From a virus: DNA of 37,387 nt. Below the pieces are notes generated by a model, which was given only the letters and a program-made list of their open reading frames with translations, had not been told where the DNA came from and made no database searches. A program made the position numbers and the translations under genes. Positions 1,446 through 12,522 of this stretch are shown in pieces; the stretch's first letter is position 1, and each line of letters starts with the position of its first letter. The stretch covers positions 1-37,387 of IMG/VR virus record IMGVR_UViG_3300043773_000651; one strand, written 5' to 3'.

Positions 1446-3240
1446 TTCCCATGCCTCCTGCGACAGATGAAACCAAGGTAGGCCGAGCGAATGGCACGTA
1501 AGCCTCTGGCCGTTGCTGCGGCGAATCTAGAAATTGAAAGCTGGCCGTATCGAACCACAGCCACTTGCGCCCTTCCCAATCCCCGTATCGCTGCTTCTGG
1601 CACGACAGAATCACGTCGGCTTCGTCCTTCAGTTCCTCGGGCTTCTCCTCTTTCCGCTTGTTGCGCCACACGTTCAGCAGTGTGCAGGCCAAATCCGTAA
1701 TCGAACCGGAGCCTTTTACGTCCATCTTGTCCGCTCGCTCGTGCTCGCTTTCCAGCTTCCTCGAATGCGTAATCAGGAACACGATTGCTTTGTGCTGGAT
1801 GGCGAAATCGCACAGCTTTTCTACCCATAGTTTTTGCGCCCCGTAGTCGTCATCCGCGATACCACACTTGGCAAGGGAATCGATTGCGAATACCGAAATC
1901 CCATAGCGCCGCCGTGCGTAGGTGAAGACCTCGATAAGCCGGTTCGTATCCGCAGTCCCGACCCGATCAAACGCCCATAGCTTGTCGCCGTACCACTTCG
2001 ATATTGCCCGGATGTACGGTATCGACGGTTCACGCACGGCCCCGGCTTGGTTCGTCAATCGTCGCAGCCACTTCGCTACGGGCATTTCGAGCGATGCGAT
2101 GCACACTCGCTCATTGCGATGCATTGCTTCGAGCATCAAATGTCCGAGCACCTGGGATTTGCCGTGGCCATTGATGCCGTTCAAGATCACAACTTCGGAC
2201 GGTCGAAAGATCAACTTTCCGTGCAACGACGGCCACGGTGTAGGGATGCCGACGAATTCCCCCTCGGGCGGGTAGAACTCACGAACCACATCGTCCGCAT
2301 AGTCCGCAGCCGACCGCAGTTCAGGCGGATCTATCGACTTCGATGCCTTGATGCATGCTGCGAATCCGGCAGAATCCATGCCTGCACAGAGCGCCTCGTT
2401 TACATCGTTCGCAGGCAACGACACGACCCGGCAACGATCCGTTCCGAGACGTTCAGCCACCAGTGCGGAACCCTTACGCCCCGCCTCGTCTTCGTCGAAC
2501 GCGACGTAGATCACGTCGAACCGATCAAGATTCGGGTACTCGATTTCGACCCACTGCATCCCGCTTGCGCCGTTCGGGACGGACAACGCAGGCATGCCAA
2601 GCTGGTACGCCGACATGGCATCAATCTCGCCCTCGCACAGCACGACTTCGCGCGCATCTGCTGGCACGCATTGCCAGCCGAACAACAACGGTTCGCAGTC
2701 GGTTTCCATCCGCATGATCTTTTTCCCTTGCGGACGATCCACACGCAACCACTTCGCGTTGAGCAGTTCGGTTCCTCGCAGGTACGGGAGCAGGATGTCT
2801 TCGCCGTCGTCTGAAGCGCGGACCTTGAACGCTCGCAACGTCTCTGCCGTGAGTCCTCGGCTGGCGAGGTAGGAAGCAACCTTGCCCTCTGCGGGCCTGT
2901 GCGTCACAGTCGGCTTTCGATACTCCTTCGGCTGATGCGCTTGAAAGGTCGGCTCTTGTACGCCGAGAAATTCGGTCGCTTCCCGCATCGCATCCCGGAG
3001 CGATACGCCTCGCGCCTGCATCCACAAGCCGATCAGGTCGCCGCCCTTATCGTCGCTGGAAAAGTCCTTCCACACGCCCGCCTTGGCCCCGGTGAGATGC
3101 ACACCGAGACTGTCACCGGCACCGCCTTGAACCGATCCGCAGCGGTACTCCGATCCTTCACGCTTGCCACCTGGGCACAGGAATTCGGCAACACGCCCGA
3201 CATCCTTGGCCAGCATTGCGGCGAGTTCTGAGGCTCTCAT
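1438..3240 (-). CDS. Primase-helicase, TOPRIM plus DnaB-type RecA domain (T7 gp4/Twinkle-like)
   Basis: A 600-residue replicative protein combining primer synthesis and 5'-3' fork unwinding. The N-terminus (residues 1-90) resembles a CHC2-type primase zinc region, but only C22 and C34 are visible as ligands. The TOPRIM domain (about 195-285) has CEGEIDAMS with the catalytic E203 and the acidic FDEDEAG at 248-254. The RecA/DnaB-like ATPase has Walker A NGINGHGKS (354-362) and Walker B FAIDSLAKCG (451-460). The frame extends upstream to 3315, but the ATG at 3240 overlaps the upstream stop as ATGA and begins the conserved protein, so it was chosen. It follows the DUF1376 gene, its likely loader or partner. 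Confidence 0.93.
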   Translation of the reverse strand: MRASELAAMLAKDVGRVAEFLCPGGKREGSEYRCGSVQGGAGDSLGVHLTGAKAGVWKDFSSDDKGGDLIGLWMQARGVSLRDAMREATEFLGVQEPTFQAHQPKEYRKPTVTHRPAEGKVASYLASRGLTAETLRAFKVRASDDGEDILLPYLRGTELLNAKWLRVDRPQGKKIMRMETDCEPLLFGWQCVPADAREVVLCEGEIDAMSAYQLGMPALSVPNGASGMQWVEIEYPNLDRFDVIYVAFDEDEAGRKGSALVAERLGTDRCRVVSLPANDVNEALCAGMDSAGFAACIKASKSIDPPELRSAADYADDVVREFYPPEGEFVGIPTPWPSLHGKLIFRPSEVVILNGINGHGKSQVLGHLMLEAMHRNERVCIASLEMPVAKWLRRLTNQAGAVREPSIPYIRAISKWYGDKLWAFDRVGTADTNRLIEVFTYARRRYGISVFAIDSLAKCGIADDDYGAQKLWVEKLCDFAIQHKAIVFLITHSRKLESEHERADKMDVKGSGSITDLACTLLNVWRNKRKEEKPEELKDEADVILSCQKQRYGDWEGRKWLWFDTASFQFLDSPQQRPEAYVPFARPTLVSSVAGGMGNG

Positions 3241-3959
3241 AGCCGCTCCGGGGGAATGGATGAAACCGTTGTTTTTGCATGTGTGTGCCCGTTGATTGGG
3301 AACAAACCCGTCCATCCGCGTTGCGTAGATCGGTTCAAGATTTCCTCCGGGTCATCACCAAGCGCCCGGAGTTTTTCCAACTCCCTGACGGCGAGATTCA
3401 ACGCATGCTCGGTGTTCGGCGTGCGCTTCTTCGCTCGCATCATCACCCAACCTTCCCAAGCCTGCTGCGGAATCCAGTCCGGCAACGAAAATGGCGCTTG
3501 CGCCTTGTTTTTGACTTTCTTTGGTTCTTGGTTATTGGTTATTGGTTCTTGGCTATTGGGAGTATTGCCTTCGTACTGCGTTGATAATACGTTCGTATGT
3601 TCGTTCGTAGATACGTTCGTATCGGTTCTAGTATTGCGTTCGTTCGTCCATCGCTTTTCGACCGATGCCCTAGCCTTATCCGATTTCGCCTGCATCCGTA
3701 GGATTTCCGCATCGCATCGACGCTGCGTGTAGCCTGCATCCGTAAGCGTGAAGAACTCGTTCAGCATGTCGGAAACCGCTTTGCGATCTTGCTTCGTGAA
3801 TGCGCGCACGAGCCGGTACAGCTTGGTCATGTCGGATGTAAGAGGCGCTTCGGTCGAGTAATAAAGATCGATGAGTCGCCGATACGCACCGTCCTCGATC
3901 ATGGAAAGGTGCGCCGTGTCCTTGGCGTAGTCGCCTATATGGTGCGGGTAGTAGTTCAC
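3237..3959 (-). CDS. DUF1376-type replication protein (O-like, candidate helicase loader)
   Basis: A 240-residue protein. Residues 1-95 match the DUF1376 family seen in phage replication cassettes (NYYPHHIGDYAKDT, then MIEDGAYRRLIDLYYSTEAPL). A polar linker (about 100-150, rich in T, N, E, Q) leads to a helical C-terminal part (about 155-225). The frame runs upstream to 4199, but the GTG at 3959 overlaps the previous stop (GTGA), is preceded by GAGAGGTGG, and starts the family consensus. The layout (N-terminal DNA-binding region, low-complexity linker encoded by DNA repeats, C-terminal part next to the helicase gene) resembles lambda O. An origin-binding or helicase-loading role is inferred. 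The linker DNA carries the candidate origin. Confidence 0.82.
   Translation of the reverse strand: MNYYPHHIGDYAKDTAHLSMIEDGAYRRLIDLYYSTEAPLTSDMTKLYRLVRAFTKQDRKAVSDMLNEFFTLTDAGYTQRRCDAEILRMQAKSDKARASVEKRWTNERNTRTDTNVSTNEHTNVLSTQYEGNTPNSQEPITNNQEPKKVKNKAQAPFSLPDWIPQQAWEGWVMMRAKKRTPNTEHALNLAVRELEKLRALGDDPEEILNRSTQRGWTGLFPINGHTHAKTTVSSIPPERL
3521..3562 (-). repeat. Heptamer array, candidate origin unwinding element
   Basis: Six consecutive 7-base units read on the plus strand: TTGGTTC, TTGGTTA, TTGGTTA, TTGGTTC, TTGGCTA, TTGGGAG. Five match TTGGYTM exactly in register and the last is degenerate. The stretch is clearly AT-richer than the surrounding genome. Seven is not a multiple of three, so the periodicity is not a by-product of a protein repeat. 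It lies in the linker-coding part of the DUF1376 gene, 27 bases from the 12-bp iterons. Confidence 0.7.
3590..3621 (-). repeat. 12-bp iterons (CGTTCGTA), candidate replication origin
   Basis: CGTTCGTA occurs at 3590, 3602 and 3614, exactly 12 bases apart, with spacers TGTT and GATA. Further CGTTCGT copies follow at 3637 and 3641. Each iteron spans about one helical turn. Together with the adjacent AT-rich heptamers this resembles oriLambda, which lies inside gene O. The repeat encodes a T-N-x-x pattern in the low-complexity linker. Origin function is inference. Confidence 0.6.
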
Positions 3960-4270
3960 GAGCAATCCACCTCTCTTAAAACATACCGGCCTTTGCTGTT
4001 CTTCGCCCAACCGTGGACGATGATTCGCCACCCTGCCTTGCGCACCGCTGCGACGTTCTCGTGCTCTGCGATCTTGTTCACGCGCGCCGAGACGTTGCGG
4101 CCGCTCGTGGTTTGCACAGCTAACGTCTCGTTCTCGCGGATCGCCAGCAAGTCCACAAAGCCGAACAGATCCACGCGACGACGCGCCCACTGGTTCCAAT
4201 GCTCCACGATGGCAACCGTGTAGCCTTGTTCCTCTAGAAGCGCCTTAGAACGCTGCGTGGGGCTGGCCAT
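3956..4270 (-). CDS. PD-(D/E)XK-like (resolvase or VRR-NUC-like) protein
   Basis: A 104-residue protein. RRVDLFGFVDLLAI (31-44) followed by TLAVQTTSGRN (49-59) resembles the GxxD...(E/Q)xxT core of small restriction-endonuclease-fold proteins found near phage replication genes. The acidic second-strand residue is replaced by Q (VQTT), as in some VRR-NUC or resolvase-like members. HENVAAVRKAGWRIIVHGW then gives the usual helix-strand ending. It lies between ssb and the DUF1376 gene, 3 bases after the ssb stop, and its TGA overlaps the downstream GTG. A role in processing replication or recombination intermediates is inferred. It could be a catalytically weak member. Confidence 0.65.
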   Translation of the reverse strand: MASPTQRSKALLEEQGYTVAIVEHWNQWARRRVDLFGFVDLLAIRENETLAVQTTSGRNVSARVNKIAEHENVAAVRKAGWRIIVHGWAKNSKGRYVLREVDCS

Positions 4271-4273
4271 CGC

Positions 4274-4729
4274 TCAGACGACGTAGCAGATGCGGCCACG
4301 GTAGGGGTTGCTAAATGGGATGTCGCTGTCCATATCCTGCACCGCCTGCATCGCCGTCTTCGCCGCAACCGGAGCACGTTCCGCAGGCTCACCCGATGAG
4401 CCCGACTTGCTGCCGAGCATCTTCATCTCGTTGACGATCACCTCGGTCGTGTACCGCTTCACGCCGTCCTTCTCCCACTCGCGCGTCTGCATCTTGCCCT
4501 CGATGTAAACCTGCGATCCCTTCTTCAAATACTCGCCGCAGATTTCGGCCAGCTTGCGGTACACCACGCAGCGAACCCACTCGGTGCGCTCCTGCTTCTC
4601 GCCGTCCTTCTTCCAAGTTTCGGTGCAGGCGATGGAAAATTTGCAGACCGGATCACCGTTTGGAAGATGTCCCAATTCTGGATCGCGGCCCAGGTTGCCG
4701 ATTGCGATGACTTTGTTCAGTGATGCCAT
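4274..4729 (-). CDS. ssb: Single-stranded DNA-binding protein
   Basis: A 151-residue OB-fold SSB. The start [19 protein letters not shown] and internal [19 protein letters not shown] and [15 protein letters not shown] are characteristic of bacterial SSB. The ATG at 4729 follows GGAGAG at about 7 bases; an upstream extension to 4774 is rejected. The DNA-binding domain covers residues 1-110, followed by a short linker. The interaction tip DSDIPF, normally C-terminal, is followed here by 14 more residues ([12 protein letters not shown] at the end). It protects single strands during replication and recombination. It lies in the early operon between an HTH gene and a nuclease-like gene. Confidence 0.95.
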
Positions 4730-4730
4730 T

Positions 4731-5051
4731 TCATTTCTCTCCGTTAATCCGTTCAACCGTGACCCGATACCCACACGCGTTCATGGTCCTCAAAAACAAG
4801 TCAACCCTCGGCATCGTCCCATCCACCTCCCACTTGTAAATCGGCGTGTGCCCGATGTCCGCCGCATACGCCAGCCGCGACCGTGACATCCCACTGACCC
4901 GCCGCGCGCGCCGGATCACGTCTGCGGGCGTGCGTGGCTCGCCGTCGAGATAGATGACCGTGGCGCGGTCCTGTGCTTCGGCCACACATGCGGGGCAGTC
5001 GCGCTGATACCAAACACGATGGATCGTGCAGAAGCAGTCGTGGGTTTTCAC
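4731..5051 (-). CDS. Zinc-ribbon plus XRE-type HTH protein
   Basis: A 106-residue protein starting with GTG at 5051, overlapping the previous stop (GTGA). Residues 5-22 ([19 protein letters not shown]) carry paired cysteines suited to binding one zinc. Residues 40-100 form an XRE-like helix-turn-helix: [20 protein letters not shown], then [20 protein letters not shown]. It is probably a DNA-binding regulator of early genes, perhaps the operon itself. It ends 1 base before the ssb start and is probably co-translated with ssb. Its target is unknown. Confidence 0.7.
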
Positions 5052-5302
5052 CAGCCTGCCCCATACACATACCCAGTCCTGTACGGCCTCGGCGCAATCA
5101 CCCCCGACTTCCCGTTAGGCTTGACCCGCACCGGCCTCGGCGCATCCTCCGTATCGGCCGCACGGTGGAACCAATAGTGAAGCGCGCCGGTTGAGACGGA
5201 CAGACGCTCCGAAATCTGCTTCGGTGTCAGCCCTTCAGCACGCAGGCGCAGGGCTTCGGCGCGGGTTTCAAGGGAATGGTATTTGGCGCGGGCTGCGGTC
5301 AT
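5048..5302 (-). CDS. Homeodomain-like HTH protein
   Basis: An 84-residue protein. RAEALRLRAEGLTPKQISER followed by LSVSTGALHYWFHRA (14-48) is a tri-helical HTH of the kind seen in transposase N-termini, Hin-like recombinases and small terminases. The tail is basic and proline-rich (RPVRVKPNGKSG). There is no catalytic domain, so it is not a transposase. The ATG at 5302 overlaps the stop of the 50-residue gene upstream (ATGA). A regulatory role is likely. A small terminase role is considered but unlikely in this early operon. Confidence 0.65.
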   Translation of the reverse strand: MTAARAKYHSLETRAEALRLRAEGLTPKQISERLSVSTGALHYWFHRAADTEDAPRPVRVKPNGKSGVIAPRPYRTGYVYGAGW

Positions 5303-5451
5303 TTCGACGCCTCCCCCGGCTTGCTCGCATCAATCACCGCCTGCAATGCGACGGCTTCGGCGACATCGTTGCGTTCCAGCTTGCGCAGTGCCGCGTAGAG
5401 ATCGAGTACGGCTAGTTGCTTGGGCGTGAGGGTGAATTCTTCTTCGGGCAT
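5299..5451 (-). CDS. Small hypothetical early protein (50 aa)
   Basis: Translation from the ATG at 5451 gives 50 residues (MPEEEFTLTPKQLAVLDLYA at the start, ending KPGEASK). It is an acidic helical protein with no recognised family. Its TGA overlaps the ATG of the HTH gene (ATGA), the standard junction of this operon, which is the main evidence that it is real. The ribosome binding site is weak (GGACC). Function unknown. Confidence 0.55.
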   Translation of the reverse strand: MPEEEFTLTPKQLAVLDLYAALRKLERNDVAEAVALQAVIDASKPGEASK

Positions 5452-5518
5452 TTCATAAGGTCCGTTTTCAGGGTCCGCGAAATGGACTCAATAGGGGGCG
5501 TATTACTGCGCCTTCCGG

Positions 5519-10705: not shown

Positions 10706-10927
10706 ATGTGGCTGACTGACGCCGAACTGGCCGACCTCACCCACAAGGCCAAGCCATCCGCCCAGGCTCGTGCGCTGCGAGCGATGTCCATCCCGTACAC
10801 TACCCGTCCAGACGGCACCCTAGTCGTGCTGCGGAGGAACCTCGATGCGTCCACGGAAAACAGACCGGCATCTCCCGCCCTGCGTTTACCTACGCCACGG
10901 CTCGTATTGGCTGGTTCGCGGAGGTAA
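10706..10927 (+). CDS. DUF4224-like protein preceding integrase
   Basis: The ATG at 10706 follows GGAGGTG. It starts MWLTDAELADLTHKAKPSAQ and continues RALRAMSIPYTTRPDGTLVV, the pattern of the short DUF4224 family found directly upstream of prophage tyrosine integrases. Family members are usually about 50-75 residues; this is 73. The last third overlaps the integrase start by 83 bases. It may be an excisionase-like or regulatory factor, inferred from position. Confidence 0.8.
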   Translation: MWLTDAELADLTHKAKPSAQARALRAMSIPYTTRPDGTLVVLRRNLDASTENRPASPALRLPTPRLVLAGSRR

Positions 10928-11834
10928 GTGGCGCAACCTTGGGCGCGACCTCCCGACCGCCCTACAGGCTTACGGCAAGGCGTACACACGTCCAGCCGGG
11001 ACAATGCCTGCCCTGATCGAGATGGCGCTAGAGGCGAAGCGTAAGCACGTCAAGCCGAACACGTTCAAGCTATACGAAGGTGCAGGCCGGAAGCTCGCCG
11101 AGATCCTGCAACAGTTCTCACCGGAAGAAGTGACTCAGCGAGACATTGTGCAGATCCGCATGGCGTTGTCGTCAACGCCCGGTGTGGCGAATCAGTGCCT
11201 ATCCGTGCTGCGGATGGTGTTCCAGTACGCTCTAGAGCATCAGTTGCTTGATACGAACCCGGCAGTCGGCATAGGTCGAGTCAAGCAGGTAGCCCGCGAC
11301 CGGCTGCTGGCCCAGGACGAATACGACCGCATCTACGCGAAGGCCACGCCGAAGCTGCGCGTTACGATGGACCTCTGTTTTCTCACCGGGCAGCGCATCG
11401 GCGACGTGCTGGCAATCCGCTACACGGACATCACGGACGCAGGCATTGCGTTCAAACAGATCAAGACCGGGGCGAAGCTCGTGCTCGGCTGGACACCCGA
11501 ACTTCGGGATGCGGTCGACCGTGCCAAGTCCCTGCACGGCAACGTCAGAGCCTTCACCTTGCTCCACGGCAGCAAAGGCAAGCCGCCGACCTATTGGGCC
11601 GTACGCGATGCCTGGGATCGCGCCGTAGCTGCTGCTGGCGTGCCGAACGCGCACATTCACGACATACGCGCGATGTCCGCTACCGCCGCAGAGGAAGCCG
11701 GTATAAATGCCACTGCGCTACTTGGCCACACGTCGCCCGCGATGACCAAGCGTTACCTGCGAAGCAAGAAAACTCCGGTCGTGCAGGGGCCGAGTTTTGG
11801 ACGAGTCATAAATGGGAAGACCAAGAAAGCATAA
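10845..11834 (+). CDS. int: Tyrosine recombinase, phage integrase
   Basis: A 329-residue integrase. The N-terminal arm-binding region (about 1-45) has PPCVYLRHGSYWLVRGGKW, then a SAM-like core-binding domain (50-150) and a catalytic domain. The catalytic set is complete: R184 (TGQRIGDVLA), K207 (KQIKTGA), H272 and R275 (HIHDIRAMSAT), H295 (LLGHTSPAM) and nucleophile Y304 (KRYLR). The ATG at 10845 follows GCGGAGG. It inserts and, with an excisionase, removes the phage genome at attP/attB. Directly downstream and overlapping is an HNH gene that shares its N-terminal domain. Confidence 0.95.
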   Translation: MRPRKTDRHLPPCVYLRHGSYWLVRGGKWRNLGRDLPTALQAYGKAYTRPAGTMPALIEMALEAKRKHVKPNTFKLYEGAGRKLAEILQQFSPEEVTQRDIVQIRMALSSTPGVANQCLSVLRMVFQYALEHQLLDTNPAVGIGRVKQVARDRLLAQDEYDRIYAKATPKLRVTMDLCFLTGQRIGDVLAIRYTDITDAGIAFKQIKTGAKLVLGWTPELRDAVDRAKSLHGNVRAFTLLHGSKGKPPTYWAVRDAWDRAVAAAGVPNAHIHDIRAMSATAAEEAGINATALLGHTSPAMTKRYLRSKKTPVVQGPSFGRVINGKTKKA

Positions 11835-12360
11835 TCCCGGCCTCCCGCGTGGAGTGTATTTCCGCCACGGCGCGTACTACCGAGTTCTGTCCGGGAAATG
11901 GATTCGGCTTGGCAATTCTACGGCCGATGTTGATCGGGAGATGGGCGAAGAAGCGATCCTGACCCCTGCCTACGTAGAAGAGGCAACCACGATGTGTCAG
12001 CGCGCTTTCAGTCGGGCAAAAAGCAATGCCAAGGGGCGCAGGCGATTGCCATTCACCATTACAAAGCACGAAGTGATGACATTGCTGCAAGCGTCACACT
12101 GGCGCTGCGCAGTCTCCGGCGCGCTGTTCTCAATGGAATTGGTAAACGGACGCAGGCCGTTTGCCCCGAGCCTCGACCGGATAGATTGCAATCGCGGGTA
12201 TGAGCCTGACAATTGCCGCGTCGTGTGCGTCTTGGCAAACCTCGCCATGAATGCTTACGGTGAAGCCGCCCTGTGGCGACTGTTTTCTCCGAAACAGCAC
12301 AGAGTATTAGACATTGTGCGATCCAGATTAGAAACACGCCCGCAAGGCGTTGATACGTAG
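11812..12360 (+). CDS. HNH-type endonuclease-like protein with integrase-like N-terminal DNA-binding domain
   Basis: A 182-residue protein overlapping the integrase end by 23 bases. Residues 1-36 (RPRKHNPGLPRGVYFRHGAY, then VLSGKWIRLG) align with the integrase N-terminus (same RPRK start, PPCVYLRHGSYW, GGKWRNLG). Residues 95-150 form an HNH-like module: HWRCAVSG, PFAPSLDRIDCNRGY, EPDNCRVVC, ANLAMN. This is the phage type with SLDRID in place of a DH pair. It may be a nicking or homing-type enzyme directed by the shared domain to arm-type sites. That function is inference; activity is not certain because the first His is replaced. Confidence 0.8.
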   Translation: MGRPRKHNPGLPRGVYFRHGAYYRVLSGKWIRLGNSTADVDREMGEEAILTPAYVEEATTMCQRAFSRAKSNAKGRRRLPFTITKHEVMTLLQASHWRCAVSGALFSMELVNGRRPFAPSLDRIDCNRGYEPDNCRVVCVLANLAMNAYGEAALWRLFSPKQHRVLDIVRSRLETRPQGVDT

Positions 12361-12522
12361 AACATTTTTTTCGCCGCAAATACTGCCGCAGTTCTTGACC
12401 GAAACGCAGCAACGGCATTGATTCGATTATGGAAACACGAACCGCTGTCCAATACTTTTATCGCGAAGAATCGCCCTGTGCGCTAGGAACGGCGCGGGGC
12501 TATTCGGTAGTATTGGACGCGA
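12361..12522. other. Convergent intergenic gap, candidate attP region
   Basis: 162 bases between the plus-strand integrase/HNH operon and the minus-strand lysis operon. It contains a T7 run just after the HNH stop (12365-12371), a weak ACGCC/GGCGT hairpin ending before it, and a long inverted repeat (listed separately). An attP core next to the integrase would lie here. No tRNA 3'-end sequence is recognised, so the core cannot be fixed. Confidence 0.4.
12447..12518. repeat. 10-bp perfect inverted repeat in convergent gap
   Basis: GTCCAATACT (12447-12456) and AGTATTGGAC (12509-12518) are perfect inverted copies with a 52-base centre. The wide spacing fits protein-binding sites (integrase arm or core sites) better than a hairpin, although a long stem-loop acting on either transcript cannot be excluded. 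Confidence 0.6.

Follow-up and report, generated by a model that had tools for sequence, protein, structure and literature searches.

In phage lambda, the N-terminal domain of the integrase (Int) binds the arm-type sites of attP. Free-standing HNH homing endonucleases of the kind known from T4 and ICP1 combine an HNH nuclease with a separate DNA-binding module at an intergenic position; their presence is sporadic, decayed copies occur, and they are proposed to target allelic sites that lack the gene (PMC10448857). AP2-HNH homing endonucleases are described among such enzymes (Magnani et al. 2004, as cited in PMC10448857). A precedent for the capture of a new binding domain is offered by phage ICP1, whose nuclease Odn, of homing origin, has gained the RepA_N DNA-binding domain of a satellite and cuts the satellite's origin (PMC10448857). 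Last, R.PacI (PDB 3ldy/3m7k) is a stand-alone restriction enzyme that has no integrase arm domain; in its HNH core (Asp-Arg...Tyr...Asn, with Gly before Tyr) the general-base His is replaced by a tyrosine that is itself positioned as general base (review, PMC4081073).

The gene described here was found in a viral contig from IMG/VR, the whole of which (37,387 bp) was analysed and is referred to as the window; L-numbers (L035, L179, L240 etc.) are labels of the loci compared with it. Like the free-standing HNH homing endonucleases, its product joins an HNH core to a separate DNA-binding module, and the gene is intergenic, sporadically present, found in decayed copies and proposed to be directed at allelic sites without it. 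Unlike the AP2/NUMOD enzymes, the binding module is an N-terminal integrase arm-binding domain; the class of this module changes to match the adjacent integrase, and the location is the phage attachment site, neither of which applies to the free-standing enzymes. The arm domain resembles that of lambda integrase (PDB 1z1b, 1z1g) in fold class and conserved residues but, unlike in lambda Int, is joined to a nuclease without core-binding or recombinase domains. As with Odn, a homing-type nuclease would repeatedly have taken over, from a replication or recombination protein, the domain that binds DNA, and with it the target; Odn, however, is a T5orf172-type nuclease turned against a satellite origin, whereas the domain here is that of the phage's own integrase class and the predicted target is attP. 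By analogy, the family may work in the manner of free-standing homing endonucleases whose DNA-binding domain is modular, with the domain capture of Odn as its precedent (PMC10448857). In the open-licence PMC literature we found neither integrase arm-domain/HNH fusions nor homing genes inside attP described. With a probability of roughly 60%, we consider the product to be an HNH nuclease directed at attP and the gene, most likely, a selfish one of the homing type with the arm-site specificity of the local integrase.

Domain composition of the nuclease

The features of the locus are collected in Table 1. The 182-aa HNH ORF and the 329-aa integrase ORF overlap by 23 bp. The same gene is present in IMGVR_UViG_3300035663_000148, where the DNA around it is 99.7% identical to the window, and so does not stem from a one-off error of assembly. 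AlphaFold models of the HNH protein and of the integrase have a mean pLDDT of 80 and a pLDDT of 88.7, respectively. The window integrase aligns with lambda Int over its full length, and a profile of 24 related integrases aligned with residues 4-346 of lambda Int (1z1b) at 3e-34, the arm-binding domain included. Small ORFs like the window's DUF4224 ORF stand before int in many relatives, including those that have no HNH gene, and the excisionase of this integrase class may be a DUF4224 protein.

Table 1. Coordinates of genes, domains and predicted attachment-site elements in the window.
Feature	Position	Strand	Remarks
DUF4224 ORF	10706..10927	+	overlaps int start; Pfam PF13986 4.3e-14; possible excisionase-type partner (function suggested by position only)
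Lambda-type tyrosine integrase, arm-binding domain at N-terminus	10845..11834	+	329 aa; Pfam PF00589 2.8e-14
Arm-type-like site GTTTTGGACG	11794..11803	+	inside int 3' end; relic or still functional
HNH-type nuclease with integrase-type N-terminal arm-binding domain	11812..12360	+	182 aa, ATG start
Arm-binding-type domain of HNH protein	11812..11952	+	residues 1-47; BLASTP, alignment, AlphaFold secondary structure
HNH core	12001..12288	+	about residues 64-159; D122, R123, Y130, N134, N143 form the PacI-type signature
Putative arm-type site GTATTAGACA	12304..12313	+	inside HNH gene 3' end; encodes V-L-D-I
Predicted attP core position	12314..12445		between left arm site and inverted arm site
Putative arm-type site GTATTGGACA, inverted	12446..12455	-	site layout
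Putative arm-type site GTATTGGACG	12510..12519	+	64 bp from inverted site, the spacing of most relatives

In a single BLASTP comparison, the N-terminus of the HNH protein matched that of the adjacent integrase with 24 of 59 residues identical (40 bits, E = 1e-8), and none of 1000 shuffled HNH N-termini reached the score of the real comparison; a chance similarity is ruled out by these two results. Residues R3, P4, R5, L11, P12, G20, V25 and W30, a set nearly invariant across about 27 integrase N-termini, are all kept. The AlphaFold models share a beta-beta-beta-alpha domain (strands 15-18, 21-26 and 29-34 and helix 37-47 in the HNH protein; strands 14-17, 20-25 and 28-33 and helix 36-47 in Int), although the two are not fully independent, the alignment used for the HNH protein having held integrase rows for the N-terminal region. 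The domain is thus of the integrase arm-binding type and should dock on the arm-type sites of attP. It is less similar to the neighbouring integrase (44%) than to other phage integrases of the same class (58-64%), and as such is not a recent duplicate of its neighbour; a recent tandem duplication of the 5' end of the neighbouring integrase gene is ruled out on the same grounds. A tree from the N-terminal domains alone did not resolve their branching.

The remainder of the protein, from about residue 60, matches phrog_3322 'endonuclease' (1e-22), phrog_3118 'HNH endonuclease' (1e-14) and phrog_1035 'endonuclease VII' (2.5e-11), and the same three families were matched by all 16 family members tested. 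A Pfam search of the window protein gave no match, and AP2 (PF00847) was matched neither by it nor by 15 other members. The best PDB match of the family profile is R.PacI (3ldy, E = 1e-3), while Foldseek against the PDB returned only weak matches, to Cas9 HNH and to PacI (rank 2). The D, R, Y, N and N of the PacI-type pattern, including the Tyr at position 130, are invariant in the 16 aligned members, each of which, as in PacI, has DR in place of DH and so lacks the general-base His of HNH enzymes; the zinc-site cysteines of PacI seem, on our reading of the alignment, only partly kept. Among HNH and beta-beta-alpha-metal nucleases, the family fits only the PacI variant. Replacement of the histidine by Arg means that activity cannot be taken for granted; nevertheless, given the invariance of these residues and the role of the tyrosine in PacI, an active PacI-type HNH site is expected of the 182-aa protein on the strength of its sequence.

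These results bear out an earlier note on this DNA, which had described a nuclease gene overlapping the integrase gene, with an N-terminus resembling that of the integrase (a likeness that now extends to the predicted structures of both N-termini) followed by an HNH-like module. Its further suggestion of a duplicated arm-binding domain holds insofar as the domain is shared; a recent copy of this particular integrase it is not, the match being at the level of the arm-domain class.

Recurrence and class-matched pairing

Relatives were sought in IMG/VR viral contigs with patterns of the HNH core, and about 47 loci remained upon removal of near-identical contigs. By our own tally, about 40 of these 47 non-redundant relatives adjoin a tyrosine integrase, a proportion that may be biased upward, as the patterns were seeded with integrase-adjacent members, though they covered the HNH core only. 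The HNH gene usually lies directly downstream of the integrase gene, often overlapping it, and the seven relatives that have no neighbouring integrase mostly carry zinc-ribbon or other N-termini. The pairing to which the earlier note drew attention recurs, then, in dozens of other viruses. Among annotated isolate phages and plasmids no arm-domain/HNH fusion was found, the matches there spanning the HNH core only, and scans of GTDB genome contigs returned no relative. One HNH-core relative that has no integrase arm domain lies near transposase genes on the Skermanella mucosa plasmid pSM-1 (L054, 3725-4354).

The N-terminal domain varies over the HNH family and matches the arm domain of the neighbouring integrase. 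Summed over 25 HNH-integrase pairs of N-termini, the local alignment score was 2109, compared with 915.5 +/- 97.4 when partners were permuted (maximum 1546; 0 of 100,000 permutations reached the real value), and with one pair per apparent class (15 pairs) the score was 1225 against 496 +/- 70 (again 0 of 100,000). Individually, 20 of the 25 pairs have scores reached by at most 1 in 1000 shuffles of their own sequence; for the pairs of L188 and L197, local alignment gives no significant score. The agreement with the local integrase extends over at least six unrelated arm-domain classes, as in L195 (PSGLRVSGRGIQIRIQRKGRTYYHTIPG vs PKGIRPSGRGLQIRVQHGGRTYYETIPG) and L249 (GVWYARGTIYV vs GVWYARGTVNV), with further matched loci in L200, L201, L254/L256/L267, L240, L222, L181, L186 and the window's lambda-like group. 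In the lambda-like class, the integrase domain nearest in sequence to that of an HNH protein is not the one of its own neighbour, and the matching is therefore at the level of class and not the product of recent duplication.

There are departures from this pattern. In L177, an HNH protein with a lambda-like domain has as its nearest integrase one of another class, and is perhaps an orphan left by an integrase swap; a single GTATTAGACA site stands just after this HNH gene (4995-5504), and the nearby integrase is on the other strand. Integrase-adjacent members that have no arm domain (L182, L193, L199) or a zinc-ribbon in its place (L235, L258) also exist, and the arm domain is consequently not essential for living beside att. 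The integrase-adjacent HNH protein of L259 apparently has both a neighbour-type arm segment and a zinc-ribbon, and is possibly an intermediate in domain exchange. In the MASFR class (L051, L254, L256, L267) the HNH gene lies upstream of int, not downstream, and in L223 two HNH-family members (1311-1724 and 3839-4330) flank the integrase on both sides.

Putative arm-type sites and the position of the gene in attP

Where the window's integrase has relatives without the HNH gene, the 10-mer (A)GTATTGGAC(A) recurs around the int stop codon in a fixed layout of one or two forward copies near -40 and -20, an inverted copy near +95 and, 64 bp beyond it, a forward copy. Allowing at most one mismatch, 54 sites fall between -60 and +260 of the int stop in 27 loci without HNH, compared with 8 in all remaining sequence, a density 148-fold that elsewhere; the consensus was derived from these same 27 loci, but site density differs widely between this interval and the rest of each locus. 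A separate pattern scan of viral contigs for the inverted site pair recovered 11 further integrases of the class with the pair 70-150 bp beyond the int stop, none of these 11 loci having an HNH gene, together with many pairs that lack this integrase class. We read the repeats, from their sequence and placement, as putative arm-type sites of the integrase class. In the window, AGTATTNGAC occurs without mismatch four times, where 0.12 are expected, and three of these copies fall at 12303-12518.

The HNH gene of the window separates int from the core-proximal part of attP and bears an arm site in its last codons, an arrangement shared with six other loci, in one of which int is encoded on the other strand. 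The same site sequence is found inside the HNH 3' end in L035, L187, L262-L264 and L270; in L035 it is followed by an inverted and a forward site 64 bp apart, and in L040 the window-like arrangement is kept as a decayed copy. Comparable positions are occupied at loci with other site sequences. In L179, where int is 1.3 kb away from the HNH gene, two copies of TATTCCACAC lie in the HNH 3' end, followed by an inverted and a forward copy 65 bp apart; in L210, two copies of TTTTGTAGAA stand just after the HNH stop, and the inverted/forward pair is 60 bp apart. In L240/L241, int and the HNH gene are convergent, on opposite strands, with TTGCGGACCGG sites inside the HNH 3' end, inverted, and at the int 3' end (63-64 bp pair). 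The opposed orientation of the L240 integrase argues that the HNH gene tracks attP and not an int operon. Between the sites of L240/L241 lies a tRNA-Asn gene; tRNA genes are typical attachment targets of phages. The core of the window's attP was placed from the site layout and from this tRNA-Asn gene in the equivalent L240/L241 interval, the prediction being of an interval and not of a core sequence. Furthermore, in eight contigs the sequence stops precisely with the HNH stop codon, as would be expected of a gene bordering the attachment site of a provirus. The gene is flanked by putative arm-type sites, which we infer to be the cleavage target of its product. The idea in the earlier note that the protein acts at the attachment arms gains support from this position, and such action would follow from the predicted specificity of its N-terminal domain.

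Inverted and forward sites are 63-65 bp apart in most of the loci L014-L048 (about -60 to +260 of the int stop), and a similar spacing of 60-65 bp accompanies the unrelated site sequences of L179, L210 and L240, which suggests a fixed intasome geometry. For most arm classes other than the lambda-like one no arm sites were identified: de novo searches (L181, L186, L190, L194, L195, L200, L201 and others) gave nothing convincing, and none were found in the MASFR class, L051 included.

Scattered presence, proposed homing and its alternatives

The HNH gene is absent from most relatives of the same integrase class. On a tree of 37 integrases of the window's class, the 7 carriers require 7 gains or losses, 6 of them forced by well-supported branches, compared with a mean of 6.6 changes for shuffled carrier labels; real carriers are no more clustered than these, a scatter somewhat inflated by the fact that carriers and non-carriers came from different searches. 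The window integrase is sister to that of L046, and the L270 integrase to that of L037, neither of which is accompanied by an HNH gene; the L270/L273 lineage itself derives from IMG isolate contigs. Broken HNH copies exist at five loci (L040/L041, L180, L203, L205, L276), some of whose frameshifts could be assembly errors. In L040/L041 the start MGRPRKDNHDLP is kept, overlapping the int stop, and the HNH core then follows in another frame.

It is reasonable to postulate from these observations that the N-terminal domain docks on the arm-type sites of attP and that the C-terminal PacI-type HNH domain would nick or cut the DNA at or near them. The nuclease would in this manner cut the attP region in related phages or prophages that have the same arm sites and lack the gene, and repair from the gene-bearing genome would copy the gene, probably with linked int/att DNA, into the cut genome. 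Since the carrier's own attP still has arm sites, some rule of self-protection is needed. The carrier may be spared because the cut falls beyond the arm site, in a sequence that the gene interrupts; because the tandem left site pair has been lost, as in the window, L035, L187 and L262; or because the sites are occupied by Int. The computation shows the homology of the domain, its recurrence, the class-matched pairing with the adjacent integrase, the position inside attP, the scattered presence and the decayed copies; binding to arm sites, catalysis, homing and the manner in which the carrier is spared are what we infer of the HNH protein.

A protein with these properties might also serve the phage and not the gene, by destroying or blocking the attachment sites of phages or satellites of the same class. 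The class-matched capture of a domain does resemble Odn of ICP1 (PMC10448857), and elements with the same arm sites are natural competitors; nonetheless, we regard such a weapon between mobile elements as unlikely, for it has no need of a seat in attP, there is no PADLOC match, and a homing gene seated at its own target explains the position within attP, the scattered presence and the decay no less well. By the same PADLOC search, a known anti-phage defence protein was rejected as a candidate. We consider it less probable still that the protein regulates integration or excision by competing with Int for arm sites or by bending or nicking attP, shifting the direction or frequency of recombination, possibly with loss of catalysis. 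It should bind the same sites as Int, its gene overlaps int and is on that account probably co-expressed, and the general-base His of HNH enzymes is replaced. Against this, however, all 16 aligned members keep the PacI-type active-site residues, the HNH gene is missing from most relatives that share the int and arm layout, and decayed copies stand beside an open int frame (L040, L180, L203, L205, L276). The window has, moreover, a candidate directionality factor regardless, in the DUF4224 ORF beside int. Homing accounts for the position, the scatter and the decay of the gene, and neither of these two alternatives does so as well; competition with the integrase and exclusion of other phages, both raised in the earlier note, are less likely than homing.

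The directionality-factor role that was proposed alongside them fares poorly. Excisionases and recombination directionality factors are small DNA-bending proteins, typically without an enzymatic domain, and a 182-aa protein with an HNH core is unlike this type. A DUF4224 ORF stands upstream of int with or without the HNH gene, which is mostly absent and decays in several loci; a directionality factor was on these grounds set aside as unlikely. It is less probable than either the weapon or the regulator that the gene has no function at the attachment site and merely hitch-hikes beside int, gaining N-terminal pieces of its neighbour by chance fusion. HNH genes of the same superfamily are common in phages, and the HNH domain of the lambda-like class is no closer to its own int than to others, as such an origin would allow; the matching of at least six unrelated arm-domain classes to the local integrase (0 of 100,000 permutations), the retention of all nearly invariant residues of the DNA-binding domain, and the presence of the gene at attP even where int is on the other strand (L240) or 1.3 kb away (L179) all argue otherwise.

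A wider form of the homing explanation, to which we would give somewhat less than even odds, is that attachment-site homing nucleases are widespread, repeatedly acquire the arm domain of the neighbouring integrase, cut gene-less attP and spread with int/att, and so help to drive the exchange of integration specificity. If homing is correct, temperate phages carry a nuclease that takes its specificity from the local integrase and whose target, the arm-type sites, can be predicted from sequence. Three questions would then become testable: the action of homing on attachment sites, the way in which phages exchange int/att modules, and the evolution of new nuclease targets by capture of a whole binding domain.

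Natural pairs of arm domain and arm site may also inform the recognition rules of integrase arm domains. In L179, the Arg or Lys of relatives (R/KHG) is a Glu (EHG) in both Int (2496-3581) and the HNH protein (4977-5504), and TATTCCAC takes the place of TATTGGAC in the arm sites; the Glu and the TATTCCAC sites are a possible recognition-code pair.
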